This document shows positions 18,344-34,292 of a stretch of DNA of 64,000 nt, one piece after another. The translations under genes and the position numbers were made by a program. Position 1 is the first letter of the stretch, and each line of letters opens with the position of its first letter. Below the pieces are notes generated by a model. That model was not told where the DNA came from, searched no databases, and saw nothing but the letters and a program-made list of their open reading frames with translations. Source of the DNA: Roseomonas nitratireducens (GTDB taxonomy: Bacteria; Pseudomonadota; Alphaproteobacteria; Acetobacterales; Acetobacteraceae); contig NZ_JAGIYZ010000001.1 of NCBI RefSeq assembly GCF_017813355.1, positions 372,001 through 436,000 of the forward strand, given 5' to 3'.

Positions 18344-19324
18344 GTCGATGCTGAGGCCGAGCCGCGCGACGGTCGCGCGTTCATAGGCCACGCGCTCGGC
18401 CGCGAAGGCCAGGTATTCGCGCGGGCCGAGGTATTCGTCCGGCATCTCCCACCGCCGCATCACCGCCTGGCTCGCCTCGTCCTGCAGCGCCTTGCGCATG
18501 GAACGGTGCAGCGTGTCGACGATCTCGGGCGGCAGCCCCTTCGGGCCGACGAAGCCGTAGGGCGAGGTGACGGACATGTTGTAGCCGAGGTCGTTCAGCG
18601 TCGGCGCATCGGGGAAGGAGGGCAGCCGCGTGCGCGTCCAGACGGACAGCAGGCGGAACTCGCCGGTCTCCACCTGGGGGCGCCAAGCCTGCGCGTCCGC
18701 CACCATGTCGATCTGCCGGCCGAGCAGCGCGGTCACGCCTTCCTGCGCGCCGCGGAAGGGCACGTGCAGCAGCTCGCAGCGCTCGCGGGACGCCAGCTCC
18801 TCCATCGCCAGGTGGTTGGTGGTGGCGATGCCCGATGTGGAGAAGCTGATCCGCCCGGGGCGCGTGCGGGCATCGGCGAAGACCTCGGCCAGCGTGCGCC
18901 AGCGCGCGTCGTTGCGCACCACGGTGCCGAAGACGAAGCCCGACAGCTGCATGATGTAGGAGAAATCCGCCACAGGGTCCCAGGTGGGCTGCCGCGTCAG
19001 GAAGGGGTGGCGCAGGATCGACAGGTGGTGGTGCGCCAGCGTGTAGCCGTCCGGCTGCGCCTGCTGCGTCAGGAAGATCGCCGCGCGGGTGCCGCGCGCG
19101 CCGGGCATGTTCTCGGAAACGATGTTCTGGCCGAGGTCGCGGCCCATGATGTCGAACATCGTCCGCTGCAGCGCGTCGAGCGACCCGCCCGGCGGCCAGG
19201 GCGTGATGATGCGGATCGGCCGGGTCGGGAAGCGCCCCTGGCCGAGCGAGGGGCGCGCCAGCAGCGGCAGCGCCGCCGCGGCGAGGATCAGGCGCCGGTG
19301 CAGCATCGCCCGCCTCTCAGCCAT
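18341..19324 (-). CDS. Bug/TctC-family periplasmic substrate-binding protein
   Basis: 327 residues with an N-terminal signal segment (LHRRLILAAAALPLLARPSLGQ). The receptor core starts RPIRIITPWPPGGSLDALQRTMFD and includes [41 protein letters not shown] and TSPYGFVGPKGLPPEIVDTLH. It is plainly paralogous to the next gene upstream: long identical stretches at the same positions indicate tandem duplication. The two genes overlap by eight bases. A later ATG (19306) just before the signal sequence is an alternative start. Ligand unknown. Confidence 0.9.
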   Translation of the reverse strand: MAERRAMLHRRLILAAAALPLLARPSLGQGRFPTRPIRIITPWPPGGSLDALQRTMFDIMGRDLGQNIVSENMPGARGTRAAIFLTQQAQPDGYTLAHHHLSILRHPFLTRQPTWDPVADFSYIMQLSGFVFGTVVRNDARWRTLAEVFADARTRPGRISFSTSGIATTNHLAMEELASRERCELLHVPFRGAQEGVTALLGRQIDMVADAQAWRPQVETGEFRLLSVWTRTRLPSFPDAPTLNDLGYNMSVTSPYGFVGPKGLPPEIVDTLHRSMRKALQDEASQAVMRRWEMPDEYLGPREYLAFAAERVAYERATVARLGLSID

Positions 19325-20312
19325 CGAGGGTGAGGTTGAGGCGGCGGACCATGGCGCGCTCGTATTCGACGCGCTCGGCGATGAAGGCGCGATAGGTCTG
19401 CGTGTCCTGGTAGACCAGCGGCATGTCGAAGCGCGCGCGCACTTCCGCGTTCTCGGGCGACAGCAGCGCGTCGCGCATCGCGTCGTGCAGGATGCGCACC
19501 ACGCCCTCGTCCATCCCGCGCGGGCCGCTGACGCCGTAGGGGGAAGTGACGACGAGGTCGTAGCCCAGTTCCTTCAGCGTCGGCACGTCGGGGAAGCGGC
19601 GCACGCGCTCGGCCGTCCAGACCGACAGCGCGCGCATCTGGTTGTTCTCGACGAAGGGCGCCCAGGTGGAGCTGTCGCAGACCATGTCCACCTGCCCGCC
19701 GATGACCGCCGTCACCGCCTCGTTCGACCCGCGGAAGGGGACATGCGTCAGCTGGATGCCCTCCTTCTCCTGGATGGTCTCCATCGCGAGGTGGTTCGTC
19801 GTGCCGATGCCGGAGGTGGTGTAGTTGAGCCGCCCCGGATTGGCCCGCGCGAAGGCGATCATGTCGGCCCATGTGCGGAAGCGGCTGTCGGCGCGCACCG
19901 CGGTGCCGAACAGCCAGCCGGTCATGCCGATGATGTGGGTGAAGTCCGCGATCGGGTCCCATTGCGGCGTGCGCATCATCCAGGGACGGCGCAGGACGGA
20001 CAGGTGCATCTGCGTCAGCGTGTGCCCGTCCGGGCGCGCCTGCTGCGCCACCGTCATGGGCCCGAGCGTGCCGCCCGCCCCCGGCTGGTTGCGCACCACG
20101 ACCGGCTGGCCGAGCGCGCGGGTGCACAGATCCCCGATCGAGCGCAGCTGCACATCGGCCGAGCCGCCCGCCGGCCAAGGCACCACGATCTGGATCGGCC
20201 GGTCGGGGAAGCGGGCCTGCGCGCGGGCGATCCCGGGCGTGGCGAGCACGGCGCCGGCGGCGAGCAGCCCCCGGCGGCTGGACATGAAGCGGGTATCGTC
20301 CCGGACGGTCAT
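19317..20312 (-). CDS. Bug/TctC-family periplasmic substrate-binding protein (tandem paralogue)
   Basis: 331 residues. A signal peptide with a twin-arginine-like start ([22 protein letters not shown]) is followed by the Bug core [23 protein letters not shown], then [38 protein letters not shown] and [21 protein letters not shown]. It shares the [15 protein letters not shown] and LSVWT blocks with the downstream receptor. It is divergent from lpd across 173 bases. The ATG at 20312 puts a ribosome-site-like GGAGAGGAAA upstream. Confidence 0.9.
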
Positions 20313-20485
20313 GGCGTGTTTCCTCTCCTCCCGGGCGGCGCGTCTGGCGGCGCCTGCCCAATGGGCGGAAGGATAGGCACGGGAGGCAGCGGGCCGGAAG
20401 CGCTTCCTCGCGCCTTGATCCCGCCGCCCGGGGCGGGCAGTTTCCGCGCCGCACAACAACACCCCCGCCAGCGCAGGACCCCGCC

Positions 20486-22271: not shown

Positions 22272-22634
22272 ATGCATCGGCTCTGGCTTTTCCTGGGCGC
22301 GCTTGCCGGGCTCGGCGCCGTCGCCCTGTCCGCCTGGGCCGCCCATGGCACCCCCGCGGGCTTCGAGGGCGCGCAGCGCCGCGCCGTGGACAGCGCGCTG
22401 ACCATGCAGGGCTGGCACGCGCTGGCGCTGCTCGCCGCGGGGCTGATGGCCGAGCGGGGGCGGGGGCTCGCGCATCTCGCCGGGGCCTGCTTCGCGCTGG
22501 GCGCCGCGCTGTTCTGCGGGGCGGTGTGGTGGACCTCGCTCGGCGGCGCGCCGGTCGGGCCCGTGGCGCCGGCGGGCGGGACGCTGCTGATGGCGGGCTG
22601 GATCGCGCTCGCCCTGGCCGCGCTGAAGCGGTGA
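22272..22634 (+). CDS. DUF423 membrane protein (YgdD-like)
   Basis: 120 residues with four predicted helices. The N-terminal LGALAGLGAVALSAWAAHG and QGWHALALLAA (His in helix 2), with a terminal GGTLLMAGWIALAL, fit DUF423. Its stop overlaps the GTG start of the rlmM gene (GTGA). E. coli has the same pair, ygdD beside rlmM, so the linkage is conserved across proteobacteria although the function is unknown. Confidence 0.85.
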   Translation: MHRLWLFLGALAGLGAVALSAWAAHGTPAGFEGAQRRAVDSALTMQGWHALALLAAGLMAERGRGLAHLAGACFALGAALFCGAVWWTSLGGAPVGPVAPAGGTLLMAGWIALALAALKR

Positions 22635-23539
22635 TCCGCGCCGCCTACCTGGCCGCGGAGGGGTTCGAGGCCGAGCTCGCCGAGGACCTTCGCCGCGCCG
22701 GCGCCGCCATCGCGGGCTGGCATGGGCGGCTCGCCCTGTCGCCCGACCCGCCCGCGCCCGCGCCCTGGGCGCTCGAGACCTGGACGGCGCCGGCCGAAAT
22801 CCCCGTCCCTTCCGTGAAGGCGGGGGCGGATGCGCTGCGCGCCATCCAGCGCAACTGGGCGCATTACCCGCTGCTGCATCATCGCCGGTCCGCCCTGCTG
22901 GCCGACCGCCTGCCGCCGGTGAAGGCGCGGCCGCTGGTCTTCCCCGAACCCGCCCCGACCGCCCATCTGGGCGCCTGGACGCTGCTCGCGCCCGACCGGA
23001 TGCTGGCGAGCCCGACCAAGACCAGCCCCTTCGTGAACGGGGAGGTGCATTTCGCGGAGGACCGTGAGGGCCCGCCATCCCGCGCCTACCTGAAATTGTG
23101 GGAGGCGCTGACGCGGCTCGGCCGGCATCCGGGGGCGGGGGAGACCTGCCTCGACCTCGGCGCCGCGCCGGGTGGCTGGACCTGGGTGCTGGCGCGGCTC
23201 GGCGCGACGGTGACGGCAGTGGACAAGGCGCCCCTCGACCCGGCCATTTCCGCCATGCCCGGCGTTTCCTGCCGGCAGGAGAGCGCCTTCGGCCTGGACC
23301 CCCGGCAGGAAGTGCCGGTCGACTGGCTGTTCTCGGACATCATCTGCTACCCGGCCCGGCTGCTCGCGCTGGTGCGGCGGTGGATGGAGGCCGGGGCGGC
23401 GCGGAATTTCGTCTGCACGCTGAAGTTCCAGGGCGAGACGGACCATGCGACGGCGGCGGAATTCGCCGCGATCCCGGGTGCGGTGCTGTTCCACGGGTTC
23501 AACAACAAGCATGAGCTGACATTCGCCAGGCTCGGCTAA
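22631..23539 (+). CDS. rlmM: 23S rRNA C2498 2'-O-methyltransferase RlmM-like
   Basis: 302 residues from a GTG that overlaps the DUF423 stop. An N-terminal THUMP-like region (YLAAEGFEAELAEDLRRAG) is followed by the RrmJ/FtsJ SAM domain, with CLDLGAAPGGWTWVLARLGATVTAVD (motif I), DWLFSDIICYP (motif IV Asp), FVCTLKFQGETDH (Lys of the K-D-K-E tetrad) and a terminal HGFNNKHELTFARLG. These order and residues are diagnostic. The enzyme methylates the ribose of C2498 in 23S rRNA before 50S assembly. It is slightly shorter than E. coli RlmM. Confidence 0.88.
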   Translation: MIRAAYLAAEGFEAELAEDLRRAGAAIAGWHGRLALSPDPPAPAPWALETWTAPAEIPVPSVKAGADALRAIQRNWAHYPLLHHRRSALLADRLPPVKARPLVFPEPAPTAHLGAWTLLAPDRMLASPTKTSPFVNGEVHFAEDREGPPSRAYLKLWEALTRLGRHPGAGETCLDLGAAPGGWTWVLARLGATVTAVDKAPLDPAISAMPGVSCRQESAFGLDPRQEVPVDWLFSDIICYPARLLALVRRWMEAGAARNFVCTLKFQGETDHATAAEFAAIPGAVLFHGFNNKHELTFARLG

Positions 23540-24102: not shown

Positions 24103-24963
24103 ATGGATTCCCTGCCGCCCGCCACCCCGCGCGCCGGCGCCATCGCCATCGCGCGCCGCGTGATGCGCGCGGCGGCGTCCGACCGCATTTCCCTGACCGC
24201 GGCGGGCTGCGCCTTCTACGCCATGCTCGCGCTGTTCCCGGCGATCTTCCTGCTCGTGCTCGTCTATGGGCTGTGGTTCGACAAGGCGACGGTCGAGCCG
24301 CAGCTTGAGGTGCTGCGCGAGCTGGTGCCGGAGGAAACCTTCGACCTGATCGCCGACCGGCTGCACCAGCTGGTGGAACAACCGCGGCCGCGCCTCGAAT
24401 GGGGGGCGATCGTCTCGGGCGGTGTGGCCATCTGGTCGGCCTCGGCCGGCACGCGGGCGATGCTGGGGGCGCTGAACATGGCGCATGGCGTCGAGGAATC
24501 GCGGAACTTCTTCGTCTATCACCTGCTCGCCATCGGCATGACGCTGTCCATCACCATCGCGGCGACGCTGGCCATCGCGGCGCTGGTCGCGCTGCCGGGG
24601 GTCGCGGCGCTGCTGGGGCTGCCGGCGCCGCAGGCCTGGACGCTGCGGGGGATGTCGATGGGCACGCTGCTCGGACTCGTCTTCATCGGGCTGGTGGTGG
24701 TCTATCGGCTCGGGCCGTCGGGGCGGCATCCGGGCATCCTGTGGACGCTGCCGGGCGCGGTGGTGGCGACGCTGCTCTGGGCGGCGGCGTCGGCCGGCTT
24801 CACGCTCTATGTCTCGAACTTCGCGACCTATGACCTGATGTACGGGCCGCTCGGCGCGGTCGTGGCGCTGCTGATGTGGTTCTGGGTCAGCGTCTATGTC
24901 GTGCTGCTCGGCGCCGAGTTGAATGTCGCGCTGGCGGTCGTCCACGCCTCGACGCGGCGCTGA
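24103..24963 (+). CDS. YihY/BrkB-family membrane protein
   Basis: 286-residue inner-membrane protein with six or so helices. The family pattern is visible: DRISLTAAGCAFYAMLALFPAIFLLVLVYG (30-60), GAIVSGGVAIWSASAGTRAMLGALNMAHG and the C-terminal YGPLGAVVALLMWFWVSVYVVLLGAELN. It was formerly annotated as ribonuclease BN, but that activity belongs to another protein; function is unresolved. The genomic context gives no clue. Confidence 0.88.
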   Translation: MDSLPPATPRAGAIAIARRVMRAAASDRISLTAAGCAFYAMLALFPAIFLLVLVYGLWFDKATVEPQLEVLRELVPEETFDLIADRLHQLVEQPRPRLEWGAIVSGGVAIWSASAGTRAMLGALNMAHGVEESRNFFVYHLLAIGMTLSITIAATLAIAALVALPGVAALLGLPAPQAWTLRGMSMGTLLGLVFIGLVVVYRLGPSGRHPGILWTLPGAVVATLLWAAASAGFTLYVSNFATYDLMYGPLGAVVALLMWFWVSVYVVLLGAELNVALAVVHASTRR

Positions 24964-24997: not shown

Positions 24998-26086
24998 ATG
25001 ACGCTGCCGAGGATCGCCGAGCTTCGCGTGCGCGCCGTCGACGCGCCGCTGGACCCGCCGCTGCGCAACAGCCTCAACACCATCCCGCGCGCGCCGCTCG
25101 TCATCGTCGACCTCCGCACGAAAGATGGCGCGGCGGGCACGGCCTATGTCTTCCCCTACACGCCGGCGGCACTCGGCCCGACGGCGTCGCTCGCGCGCAG
25201 CCTCGGCGCGGGGCTGGTCGGCAAGCCGCTGGCCCCCGCGACGCTGTGGCGGGAGATGCACGATGCCGGCCGCATCCTGGGCACCGAGGGGCTGGTGCAG
25301 ATCGCGCTCTCCGCGCTCGACATGGCGATGTGGGATGCGCTGGCGGTCACCGCCGGGCTGAAGCTGTGCGAGATGCTGGGGGCGGAGGCGCGCCCCGTTC
25401 CGATCTATGCCTCCCTGCGCGGCTGGGGGGCTTCGATGCTGGCCGAGGAAGCGGGCCGCGCGGTCGCGACGCTCGGCGCGCGCTGGATCAAGTTCAAGAT
25501 CGGGCAAAAGCGGCTGGAGGACGACCTCGACACCGTGCGCGCCGTGCGCGCCGCGGTGGGCGAGGAGGTCGGCATCCTGGTCGACTACAACCAGGCGCTG
25601 GATTTGCCGGAGGCCGAGCGCCGCGGCCGCGCGCTGGAAGCCGAGGGCGTGCGCTGGCTCGAGGAACCGCTGCCGGTGCAGGACGATGCGGGGCTCGCGG
25701 AACTCGCGCGGCGCCTGGCGCTGCCGGTGCAGGGCGGGGAGAACTGGTGGGGGCCGGCCGCGATGCAGCGCGCGCTGTCGATGGGCGCGGTCGACCTGTG
25801 CATGCCGGATGCGATGAAGATCGGCGGCGTCACCGGCTGGCAGCGCGCGGCGGCGATCGCGGCGGCGCATCGCGTGCCGATGTCCTCGCACATCTTCGTG
25901 GAGGCCAGCGTGCACCTGCTGAACGCGACGCCGACGGCGCATCTGCTGGAACACCTGGACGTGGCGGGGCCGCTGCTGGCCGAACCGCTGCGGGTGAAGG
26001 ACGGGATGGCGCTGGTGCCCGACCGGCCAGGGATGGGATTGGTGTGGGACGAGGCGATGCTGACCAAGCACGCCGCGGACGTGTGA
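24998..26086 (+). CDS. Mandelate-racemase-type enolase-superfamily enzyme
   Basis: 362 residues with an N-terminal capping domain (1-125) and a (beta/alpha)7-beta barrel. Visible residues align with Pseudomonas mandelate racemase shifted by one: K165 and K167 (IKFKIG; K164/K166), metal ligands D196, E222 and E248 (D195/E221/E247), the D271-H298 dyad (D270/H297) and E318 (E317). Both the (S)- and (R)-specific bases are thus present, so 1,1-proton transfer on a 2-hydroxycarboxylate is chemically expected. A GGAGGA site precedes the ATG. The next gene, 15 bases downstream, is a 2-hydroxyacid dehydrogenase. True mandelate activity needs testing, since acid-sugar dehydratases share most ligands. 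Confidence 0.85.
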   Translation: MTLPRIAELRVRAVDAPLDPPLRNSLNTIPRAPLVIVDLRTKDGAAGTAYVFPYTPAALGPTASLARSLGAGLVGKPLAPATLWREMHDAGRILGTEGLVQIALSALDMAMWDALAVTAGLKLCEMLGAEARPVPIYASLRGWGASMLAEEAGRAVATLGARWIKFKIGQKRLEDDLDTVRAVRAAVGEEVGILVDYNQALDLPEAERRGRALEAEGVRWLEEPLPVQDDAGLAELARRLALPVQGGENWWGPAAMQRALSMGAVDLCMPDAMKIGGVTGWQRAAAIAAAHRVPMSSHIFVEASVHLLNATPTAHLLEHLDVAGPLLAEPLRVKDGMALVPDRPGMGLVWDEAMLTKHAADV

Positions 26087-26100
26087 GAGGACAGACAGAG

Positions 26101-27021
26101 ATGCGCGCAGCCTTCGTCGACGCCAACGCCTCGCTCGCCGAGGTCATGCGGCGCCTGCACCGTCCCGACGACCTGCCGGTCGCGATCCACGAGGACCCGG
26201 ACATCACGCCCGAGGCACTTCCCGCCCTGCTCGCCGGCGTGCAGATCGCGATCGACGACCACACGCATTTCCCGGTGGACGTCGTGAAGCGCTGCCCGGA
26301 CCTGCGGCACATCGTCTTCCTCGGCACCGGCGCGCGGTCCTACATGGACCCGGAGGCGCTGGAAGCCGAATGCGGCGTGAAGGTGCACATCATCAAGGGC
26401 TATGGCGACACCGCGGTCGCCGAGATGGCCTTCGCGCTGATGTGGGGCGCGGCGCGCGGCCTCGGCCTGATGCACCACGCCATCAAGGGCGGCGGATGGC
26501 CGCGCACGGACGGGATGCAGCTGACGGGCAAGACCGTCGGCATCATCGGCTTCGGCGGCATCGGGGCCGAGATGGCGCGGCTGTGCAACGGCGCGGGGAT
26601 GAAGGTGCTGGCCTGGAACCGCACGCCCAAGTCCGCGCCGGGCGTCACCTTCACCGACGTCGACACGCTGCTCGCGCAAAGCGACGTCGTCTCCCTGCAC
26701 CTGCTGCTGAACGACGAGACGCGCGGGTTCCTCAACGCCGAGCGCCTCGCGCGCATGAAGCCGGGCGCGCTGTTCGTGAACACCGCGCGCGGGGCGATCG
26801 TGGACGAGGCGGCGCTGACGGAAGCGATCCGCAGCGGACGCATCGGGGCGGCGGGGCTCGACGTGTTCGTCGAGGAACCGCTGCCGGCGGGGCATCCGCT
26901 CACGGCGCTCGACAATGTGGTGCTGGCCTCGCATTCCGCGTTCCGTACGCCGGAAGCGACGGACAACCTGATCGAGGCGTCGCTGGTGCATTGCAGGCGG
27001 ATTCTCCGCGACGGCGCGTAA
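26101..27021 (+). CDS. NAD(P)-dependent D-2-hydroxyacid dehydrogenase
   Basis: 306 residues. The Rossmann motif is GFGGIG (150-155), followed by a basic residue at AWNRTP that hints at NADP preference. The catalytic set is complete: R230 in NTARGAIVDE, E259 in VFVEEP and H278 in LASHSAFRTPEA. It oxidises a D-2-hydroxyacid to the 2-oxoacid or the reverse. Its position directly after the mandelate-racemase homologue suggests that racemisation feeds it the D-enantiomer. No decarboxylase or ring-cleavage genes follow, so the pathway is incomplete here. Confidence 0.88.
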   Translation: MRAAFVDANASLAEVMRRLHRPDDLPVAIHEDPDITPEALPALLAGVQIAIDDHTHFPVDVVKRCPDLRHIVFLGTGARSYMDPEALEAECGVKVHIIKGYGDTAVAEMAFALMWGAARGLGLMHHAIKGGGWPRTDGMQLTGKTVGIIGFGGIGAEMARLCNGAGMKVLAWNRTPKSAPGVTFTDVDTLLAQSDVVSLHLLLNDETRGFLNAERLARMKPGALFVNTARGAIVDEAALTEAIRSGRIGAAGLDVFVEEPLPAGHPLTALDNVVLASHSAFRTPEATDNLIEASLVHCRRILRDGA

Positions 27022-32584: not shown

Positions 32585-32728
32585 ATGTCAGGCGCGCTCC
32601 AGCGCCTCATTCCAGGCGTGCCCCCGCGGCTTACTCCAGGCGTGCGCCCGCGGGTCACTCCAGGCGCACTCCCGCAGCCTATTCCAGGCGCGCTCCGGCG
32701 CGTCATTCCAGGCGCGCATTCGCGCGAC
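32585..32728. repeat. 24-bp tandem array duplicating a gene's stop-codon end
   Basis: Six consecutive 24-base units start at 32585, 32609, 32633, 32657, 32681 and 32705, with core TCCAGGCG. Units 2 to 6 start ATTCCAGGCG or ACTCCAGGCG; unit 1 is the degenerate ATGTCAGGCG. The last unit lies inside the receptor gene: on the minus strand it encodes ARLE and its stop. Because 24 is a multiple of three, the next units are in frame and read RLE-stop again with TGA, TAG, TGA, TAA and (for the degenerate unit) TGA. The array therefore extends the gene end with serial in-frame stops. There are no spacers, so it is not CRISPR. Confidence 0.9.
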
Positions 32729-33689
32729 GCACCACCTCCGGCCAGCGGGCCGCCTCGGCGCGGACATGGGCGGCGAAGCGGTCGGGGCCGGTCGCGGTCA
32801 CGGTGAAGCCCTGGCGTTCCAGGTCGCCCGCCACCTCGGGCAAGGCGAGGATCGCGGCCAGTTCCCCGGCCAGGCGCGCGATGGCCGCCGGCGGCGTGCC
32901 GGCGGGGGCGAGGATGCCCTGCCAGGTCACCACGTCGAAGCCGGGCAGCAGCGCCTCGGCCACCGTGGGCACGTCCGGCAGGGCGCCGCTGCGCTGCGCG
33001 GAGGTCACGGCGAGGGCGCGCAGCCGGCCCGCGCGGATGTGCTCGATCGCGGCGGGCAGGGTGACGAACAGCGCCTCGACATGCCCGGCCACCACGTCCA
33101 CCACCGCCGGCCCGCCGCCGCGATAGGGGACATGGGTGTAGGCGATCCCCGCCTCCTGCCCGAACAGCGCGCCGGCCAGATGCCCGATCGAGCCATTGCC
33201 CTGGGAGGCGACGGACAGCTTGCCCTCGGCTTCCCGCGCCCAGGCGACGAAGCCGGCCAGGTCGCGCGCGGGGGAGCGCGGGTTGACGACCAGCACCTGC
33301 GGCGCGCGCACCGCCTCGATCACCGGGGCGAAGTCGCGCACCGGGTCGAAGGCGATGCGGGGGTAGAGCGCCGGGTTGATCGTCAGCGGGTCGGAACCGA
33401 CCACCAGCGTGTGCCCGTCCGGCCGCGCCCGCGCGGTCAGTTCGAAGGCGAGGTTGCTGCCCGCGCCCGGATGGTTTTCCGCCACCACCGGCTGGCCCAG
33501 CCGCGGCGCCAGCTGCCGCGCCAGGACGCGGCCGAGGATGTCGAGGCTGCCGCCGGGCGCCACGGGGACGATGACGCGCAGCGGCCGGTCGGGCACCCAG
33601 GTCGTGCCGACCGCGCCCGCGGCGCGCGGCAGCAGGCCGGCCCCGGCCAGCAGCGCGGAGCGGAGGAGGAGGTCGCGGCGAAGGGTCAT
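32703..33689 (-). CDS. Bug/TctC-family periplasmic substrate-binding protein
   Basis: 328 residues with a signal peptide MTLRRDLLLRSALLAGAGLLPRAAGA. The core has RPLRVIVPVAPGGSLDILGRVLARQLA, ENHPGAGSNLAFELTARARPDG, HVPYRGGGPAVVDVVAGHVEALFV and DVPTVAEALLPGFDVVTWQG. The ATG at 33689 gives the proper secretion signal; upstream in-frame codons lie in the Lrp gene's complement. It is divergent from an Lrp/AsnC gene that may regulate it. Its 3' end carries the 24-bp array. Confidence 0.9.
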   Translation of the reverse strand: MTLRRDLLLRSALLAGAGLLPRAAGAVGTTWVPDRPLRVIVPVAPGGSLDILGRVLARQLAPRLGQPVVAENHPGAGSNLAFELTARARPDGHTLVVGSDPLTINPALYPRIAFDPVRDFAPVIEAVRAPQVLVVNPRSPARDLAGFVAWAREAEGKLSVASQGNGSIGHLAGALFGQEAGIAYTHVPYRGGGPAVVDVVAGHVEALFVTLPAAIEHIRAGRLRALAVTSAQRSGALPDVPTVAEALLPGFDVVTWQGILAPAGTPPAAIARLAGELAAILALPEVAGDLERQGFTVTATGPDRFAAHVRAEAARWPEVVRRANARLE

Positions 33690-33800
33690 GGCGGGGATTT
33701 CCGTTCCGAAAGAGAAGCCTGTTCTCTTCACGGCGCGAAAACTTGCAAGCAAAAGATTTTTCTGCCACGTGAAGCGCTCAGACCGCCAAGGACTTGCCCG

Positions 33801-34271
33801 TTGAGCCGCAGTTTCGAGCCCGATCACACCGACCGCGCCATCCTCCGCCTGATCCAGAAGGACGCCGCCCTGTCGCTCGCCGACATCGCGAAGGAGGTGG
33901 GGCTGACGCCGACCCCCTGCTGGAAGCGCATCCGCCGGATGGAGCAGGAAGGCGTGATCACCGGCCGCGTCGTGATCCTGGACCCGGAGAAGGTCGGGCT
34001 CGGCGTGTCGGTCTTCGTCGCGATCGAGACGGGCGACCACTCCGCCCCATGGATCGAGACCTTTGCCGCGACGGTCGCGAAGATGCCCGAGATCGTCGAA
34101 TGCTGGCGGCTGGGCGGGGACGTGGACTATCTGCTGCGCGTGGTGGTGCCGGACATGCAGGCCTTCGACCTGTTCTACCGCCGCCTGACCGCCCAGGTGC
34201 CGAGCCTGCGCAAGGTCACGTCCCGCTTCGCGATGGAACGGGTGAAGAGCACGACGGCGCTGCCGGTGTGA
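33801..34271 (+). CDS. Lrp/AsnC-family transcriptional regulator
   Basis: 156 residues from a TTG start with AAGGA about nine bases upstream. An N-terminal winged helix ([43 protein letters not shown], 10-53) is followed by the RAM ligand-binding domain ([14 protein letters not shown]..., [29 protein letters not shown]). Such proteins form octamers or dimers that sense amino acids or related acids. It is divergent from the TctC gene with 111 bases between, a usual local-regulator arrangement. No ATG exists near the family N-terminus, which supports the TTG. Confidence 0.88.
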
Positions 34272-34292
34272 CCGCATGCCGGCGCTGATGCG

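Follow-up and report, generated by a model that had tools for sequence, protein, structure and literature searches.

The closest described system to the locus treated here is mandelate racemase (MR) of Pseudomonas putida (1mdr/1mns/3uxk). In one report, the 20s loop of MR (V22, T24, A25, V26, V29) packs on apolar groups of a bound inhibitor, and the enzyme turns over trifluorolactate with a kcat about 100-fold below that for mandelate (PMC9835602); a second states that MR can eliminate chlorine from 3-chlorolactate (PMC8142540). The name is also heavily over-assigned: in one survey that covered several enolase families, none had a higher rate of misannotation in NR than 'mandelate racemase', at 90% (PMC2781113). 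Other solved proteins of this kind are BRADO_4202 of Bradyrhizobium (3toy, 3tte) and an enolase of strain BAL199 (3ugv); the title of the 3tte entry names magnesium and mandelic acid, and among the papers listed in a literature search by these identifiers none gave a function for 3toy, 3tte or 3ugv. The acid-sugar enzymes used here for comparison are the talarate/galactarate dehydratases TalrD (2pp0) and 2og9 and the 3,6-anhydrogalactonate cycloisomerase 5xd7. By its shared sequence entry, 2og9 is the same Polaromonas enzyme as 3cb3, which is named L-talarate dehydratase among the fold matches.

Locus and phylogenetic placement

We analysed a 64,000-bp stretch of contig NZ_JAGIYZ010000001.1 (hereafter the window) from the 4.98-Mb genome of Roseomonas nitratireducens, where an initial annotation had described an MR homologue beside a D-2-hydroxyacid dehydrogenase; open reading frames, residues and homology far above chance all bear this observation out. 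The MR-like gene runs on the plus strand from an ATG at 24998 to a stop codon ending at 26086 and encodes 362 aa, assigned to the MR clade of the enolase superfamily from sequence, alignment, tree and fold model. A 14-bp spacer (26087–26100) separates it from the dehydrogenase gene (26101–27021, 306 aa) on the same strand, an operon-like arrangement. Directly upstream lies a BrkB/YihY-family membrane protein gene (24103–24963), preceded by an FtsJ-like methyltransferase (22526–23539, ORF as listed), both on the plus strand and identified by domain scan; neighbour clustering places a BrkB/YihY homologue at the first upstream position in 34 loci. Among the loci compared, the closest named organism is Roseomonas rubea, at 95% identity for the MR-like protein. 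Elsewhere in the window, a domain scan identifies on the minus strand (19317–20462) a gene for a tripartite tricarboxylate receptor (TctC), and the ORF at 32703–34277 resembles a TctC gene by look alone; TctC-lookalike genes also flank the MR-like gene in three other loci (L045, L048, L146, by clustering).

Both mandelate racemase/muconate lactonizing domains are present in the MR-like protein (PF13378, E 8e-56). Its best solved sequence relative is MR (E 1.4e-96), followed by 3toy (4.5e-86) and 3ugv (4e-77), with far weaker matches to 2og9 (7e-44) and 2pp0 (2e-43). The AlphaFold model (mean pLDDT 95.9) gives the same ranking: its best fold match is MR (TM 0.96, 1.1 Å, 47% identity over 351 aligned columns), then 3toy/3tte and 3ugv, and then, after a clear drop, 2ovl and the talarate dehydratases. 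NCBIfam dehydratase models in general score the protein far under their cut-offs, and the L-talarate/galactarate dehydratase model NF047820 (TalGalacDh) gives 207.7 bits against a cut-off of 500.

Phylogenies agree with this ranking. Removal of identical proteins kept 151 of 219 sequences, and rows shorter than 300 aa, among them that of locus L050 and a paralogue from the same genome (L007), were dropped before alignment. In a 98-row tree, which leaves out nine near-duplicates and 28 of the 48 window-branch rows, the window protein falls into one clade with P. putida MR, apart from TalrD, 2og9, 5xd7 and L239–241 (SH-aLRT 99), and a careful 35-row tree gives the same split at 100/100. AU tests reject a union of the window protein with TalrD/2og9 (2e-7) and with 5xd7/L239–241 (5e-8). 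These narrower tests were run because a broader one, uniting the window protein with all six sister rows (p 0.07), is unrooted and amounts to setting the window branch deepest within the MR clade, a placement that it allows, and says nothing on nesting among the dehydratases. Sisterhood of the window branch with P. putida MR alone is not resolved (AU 0.20). The named acid-sugar enzymes in these trees are TalrD, 2og9 and 5xd7, with D-tartrate dehydratase left out; within that set, the grouping with galactarate dehydratases that the initial annotation had raised against its own proposal does not appear, and membership of the talarate/galactarate dehydratases is ruled out by trees, AU tests and model scores alike. 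The window protein is a bona fide MR-clade branch of its own within Acetobacteraceae.

Catalytic residues and substrate pocket

Residues K165, K167, D196, E222, E248, D271, H298 and E318 of the window protein align with K164, K166, D195, E221, E247, D270, H297 and E317 of MR, and the one-residue offset originally described for all eight holds in sequence and alignment. By analogy with MR, D196, E222 and E248 are the predicted Mg ligands and K167 and H298 (with D271) the predicted bases, to which K165, N198 and E318 would be added; N197, F52 and Y54 (MR numbering) are likewise common to MR and the window protein. Of 48 window-branch rows, 47 retain the full set, and so do all seven sister-clade rows examined (dehydratases 2pp0 and 2og9, cycloisomerase 5xd7 and L239–242); none of 18 more distant rows, five paralogues from the same genome included, has it. 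Retention of both bases and the E317 equivalent, which the initial annotation had considered uncommon among relatives, is thus uncommon in the far relatives but universal in the sister-clade rows. The further step from these residues to a racemase does not survive, since dehydratases and a cycloisomerase keep all eight; the residues indicate a capacity to abstract the alpha-proton rather than to racemise, and their register was discarded as proof of racemisation.

Nor is the MR clade uniformly of the two-lysine type, as Arg replaces K166 in 55 of its 126 rows, largely within one clade of the tree (L056, L057, L063, L067 and others). One Arg-166 sub-branch (L198, L181, L211, L221, L148, L154) has Lys or Arg at position 25, Glu at 52 and Gln or Arg at 319 (MR numbering), residues from which a polar substrate appears probable for that sub-branch.

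The pocket is more informative. It is lined in the window protein by L22, N24, S25, L26, I29, F52, Y54, I93, I299 and L320 (window numbering), compared with V22, T24, A25, V26, V29, F52, Y54, L93, L298 and L319 in MR, so that seven of the ten lining positions differ and only F52, Y54 and L319 (MR numbering) are common to both. Within the branch the lining hardly varies: positions 22, 24, 25, 26, 29, 54 and 319 show no change in any of the 48 rows, the first five of these being L, N, S, L and I throughout, unlike MR, and the others are nearly so (46 F and 2 W at position 52; 44 I and 4 L at 93; 47 I and 1 L at 298). Positions 52/54 are F/Y in the window protein and MR, whereas 2pp0 and 2og9 have Y/K there and 5xd7 has Y/G; the sequence stretches of 2pp0 and 2og9 lack the 20s loop, which was compared with that of 5xd7 only. 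The lining is apolar save for N24 and S25 and bulkier than that of MR at positions 22, 26 and 29, which suggests a side chain different from that of mandelate and perhaps smaller. This mostly apolar, near-invariant pocket is better evidence for function than the eight residues, and mandelate as the natural substrate has no positive support in our data beyond kinship with MR.

The dehydrogenase and the gene neighbourhood

The downstream gene (ATG at 26101, 14 bases past the stop codon) encodes, as the initial annotation had it, a complete D-2-hydroxyacid dehydrogenase with R230, E259 and H278, its D-specificity being predicted from the family. The D-isomer-specific domain PF02826 is matched at E 3e-59 (200 bits against a cut-off of 25.1), and PF00389 is not reported at 1e-3. 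The catalytic Arg/Glu/His is kept in all 49 non-redundant orthologues, the window's own included, and so is a beta-2 motif of the form NR(T/S)x(K/R), present here as NRTPKS beyond the Rossmann GFGGIG. We take this motif to be NADP-type, in which case reduction would be the likelier reaction in vivo. Counting this gene, the genome has 19 strong PF02826 matches (E <1e-40).

Across Acetobacteraceae, the dehydrogenase directly follows the MR-like gene in 27 of 45 orthologous loci (L050, cut by its contig, is left out), with the stop codon deducted at a spacing of about 10–22 bp in 18 of the 27 and about 53–525 bp in the other nine. Of the 18 loci without an adjacent dehydrogenase, one belongs to a genome with an orthologue elsewhere and 17 to genomes with none at 1e-60, several of the 18 being draft MAGs whose completeness that search does not give. 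In 299 genomes of the family, partly the same as the locus set, the dehydrogenase occurs in 138 and an MR-clade match in 33. Among the 21 genomes with an MR-like protein of at least 65% identity, 14 have the pair adjacent, one has it on separate contigs and six, which are 85–99% complete, lack the dehydrogenase at 1e-60. Adjacency changes state at least four times on the dehydrogenase tree (49 rows, 29 with an MR-like gene adjacent). Neighbour clustering used locus-matched gene models, since a crude gene caller and another trained on the window had both overlooked genes in loci of lower GC. The pairing first noted in the window is real, common across genera and dissociable in both directions, each gene also occurring without the other. 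A literature search (titles and abstract starts among the matches listed, with few subscription papers) returned nothing on this pair or branch.

The dehydrogenase also has associations of its own. It stands directly behind FtsJ in five of 20 fetched regions without an adjacent MR-like gene (L121, L122, L126, L127, L129), and so may have held that place before the MR-like gene arrived. The pair is intact in two loci where FtsJ does not adjoin it: FtsJ lies several genes upstream in L047, and none was seen in the L065 locus. Where it lacks an MR neighbour in three further loci (L125, L128, L130), the dehydrogenase lies with genes for a DadA-like D-amino-acid dehydrogenase and an Asp/Glu-racemase-family protein. 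In L131 (1490–6906) and L135 (5276–11502) it is clustered with DadA-like, RidA-like, aminotransferase and ThDP-enzyme genes, with no MR-like gene adjoining, in a type of cluster that stands behind a GntR regulator (family scanned in L135); this context fits 2-oxo-acid metabolism. Neighbour families were scanned for L125 and L135 and assigned by clustering for L128, L130 and L131. Elsewhere in the L135 genome lies an MR-clade gene of 47% identity.

Some other MR-clade genes keep company with unrelated 2-hydroxyacid oxidoreductases. A PanE/ApbA-family reductase lies directly upstream, at 2–11 bp, in six of 78 other MR-clade rows, identified by family models in L057, L067 and L208 and by 62–68% identity to L057 in L058, L063 and L066. 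In a Burkholderiales MAG (L068, 5345–10348) the MR-like gene is set inside glcD-glcE-[MR]-glcF, overlapping glcE by 4 bp upstream and separated from glcF by 8 bp downstream; GlcE and GlcF score above NCBI cut-offs and GlcD below. The setting is that of a glycolate oxidase operon and hints at glycolate or lactate as the substrate. In L197 (4980–10679) an MR-clade gene is followed by CCG-domain LutA-like, LutB-like (399 bits against a cut-off of 444.8), LUD-domain and indolepyruvate/phenylpyruvate decarboxylase genes (803.8 against 554.5 bits; PDB 2nxw, 5e-199), and by its gene content this cluster looks like a catabolic operon for an aromatic 2-hydroxyacid such as phenyllactate or indolelactate. 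A GlcD-like gene lies divergently 103 bp away in L188, and another lies 2.6 kb downstream in L054. A scan of 30 genes adjoining other MR-clade rows pointed to a hydroxyacid oxidoreductase once, in the LutA-like gene of L197. Such families make up nine of 58 adjacent same-strand genes against three of 351 genes at rank 3 or beyond (Fisher 2e-6), a figure of limited statistical weight that we use descriptively, as the query families were picked after the neighbours had been seen, the PanE, GlcDEF and LutAB queries came from the hit loci themselves, and the rows are not independent (one to three events may account for all six PanE rows, and L068 is counted twice); Pfam names cover part of the 58. 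In five loci of one branch (L142, L192, L197, L200, L219) a regulator gene of TetR-like appearance lies divergently 86–99 bp upstream of the MR-clade gene.

Candidate function

We propose, at a probability of roughly one half, that the protein encoded at 24998–26086, which forms its own Acetobacteraceae branch of the MR clade, racemises (or epimerises) 2-hydroxyacids in a metal-dependent reaction, with an apolar, probably non-mandelate substrate and a linked dehydrogenase. The racemase reading is favoured by MR being the best match in both sequence and fold, by the clade split, by the conservation of the pocket, by the pairing, by the oxidoreductase neighbours seen elsewhere in the clade and by the gene context of dehydrogenase relatives that lack an MR neighbour. 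Mg2+ held by D196, E222 and E248 would bind the carboxylate and alpha-hydroxyl of the 2-hydroxyacid, K167 and H298 (with D271) would each serve one face in the exchange of the alpha-proton, and the aci-carboxylate would be stabilised by E318 and K165. The mostly apolar lid and pocket (L22, L26, I29, F52 and Y54, with N24 and S25 polar) would take an apolar side chain, probably not the phenyl of mandelate. If the downstream dehydrogenase interconverts the D-enantiomer and the 2-oxo acid, the two enzymes together would join L- and D-2-hydroxyacids to the 2-oxo-acid pool. Several observations count against this reading: the eight residues also serve dehydratases, Arg is frequent at K166, 17 of the 18 genomes without an adjacent dehydrogenase have none at 1e-60, the dehydrogenase is far more widespread in the family than MR-clade genes (138 against 33 of 299 genomes), only one of the 30 scanned neighbours was suggestive, and the branch may be the deepest of its clade. 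A purely aliphatic 2-hydroxyacid is, moreover, a hard substrate for MR-type chemistry.

Some of these same points would suit a dehydratase, or other beta-elimination enzyme, acting on a 2,3-dihydroxy acid that ends in an apolar group; the dehydrogenase would then reduce or oxidise the 2-keto product. Such an activity fits the retention of all eight residues in TalrD, 2og9 and 5xd7, the frequent replacement of K166 by Arg within the MR clade and the chlorine elimination reported for MR itself; we nevertheless consider it unlikely, as trees and AU tests set the protein outside the TalrD and 5xd7 groups, dehydratase models score it far under cut-off, and positions 52/54 follow MR. Less probable still is the initial proposal, in which the protein would racemise mandelate itself (or a ring-substituted mandelate) and supply the (R)-form to an NAD(P)-dependent mandelate dehydrogenase. 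MR is indeed the nearest solved relative and has F52, Y54 and L319 in common with the window protein, but the five 20s-loop positions are unlike MR in every branch row, none of the other mandelate-pathway families stood out among ten window proteins scanned, and the best of 16 matches to the benzoylformate decarboxylase model in the genome reaches 196.6 of the 493 bits required, a cut-off that no control genome passed either. What stands of the initial interpretation is the MR-clade membership and the gene pair; the eight residues do not predict a racemase, mandelate as substrate lacks positive support, and the D-specific oxidation predicted there may instead run as reduction. The flavin route, with which that proposal had been contrasted, may also operate, given two strong FMN-dependent hydroxyacid dehydrogenase-family proteins in the genome, one LldD-like and below curated cut-offs, the other matching no NCBIfam model at 1e-20.

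It is also conceivable, if doubtful, that the two genes adjoin merely through shared descent of the locus and serve separate pathways, the dehydrogenase being a general 2-oxo-acid reductase behind FtsJ; this view overlaps the other alternatives. It would account for the FtsJ–dehydrogenase regions without an adjacent MR-like gene and for the occurrence of each gene without the other. The pair nevertheless stays joined where FtsJ does not adjoin it, two-thirds of the paired loci (18 of 27) have a short spacer, and some other MR-clade genes adjoin unrelated 2-hydroxyacid oxidoreductases, all of which argue against separate pathways.

Set beside known systems, the dehydrogenase resembles the D-isomer-specific 2-hydroxyacid dehydrogenases 1wwk, 5tx7 and 2cuk in its NAD-binding domain and catalytic Arg/Glu/His, and differs in falling under every NCBIfam cut-off reported for it. 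The L-talarate/galactarate dehydratases are like the MR-like protein in fold (TM about 0.9) and in all eight residues, and unlike it in identity (27–34%), clade and positions 52/54; BRADO_4202 and the BAL199 enolase have an MR-like fold at 38–43% identity. P. putida MR is closer than any of these in fold and sequence, yet it parts from the window protein in the 20s loop (V/T/A/V/V against L/N/S/L/I), in the window gene's partner, a D-isomer 2-hydroxyacid dehydrogenase, and in the window genome having no benzoylformate decarboxylase over the uncontrolled cut-off given above. We tentatively suggest that the MR clade may be a broad, mostly uncharacterised 2-hydroxyacid racemase family whose usual substrate is not mandelate and whose lineages have joined at least four unrelated oxidoreductases (a D-isomer dehydrogenase, a PanE-like reductase, GlcDEF, and a LutAB type with phenylpyruvate decarboxylase), the window branch combining its own near-invariant pocket with an NADP(H)-type partner, and with Mg2+-only racemisation as an alternative to nickel-dependent LarA. 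This branch truly groups with MR, yet its pocket is distinct and near-invariant and its partner is a dehydrogenase. Knowledge of its substrate would shed light on the role of the larger MR clade and show whether racemases of the enolase type replace nickel LarA enzymes in the metabolism of 2-hydroxyacids.
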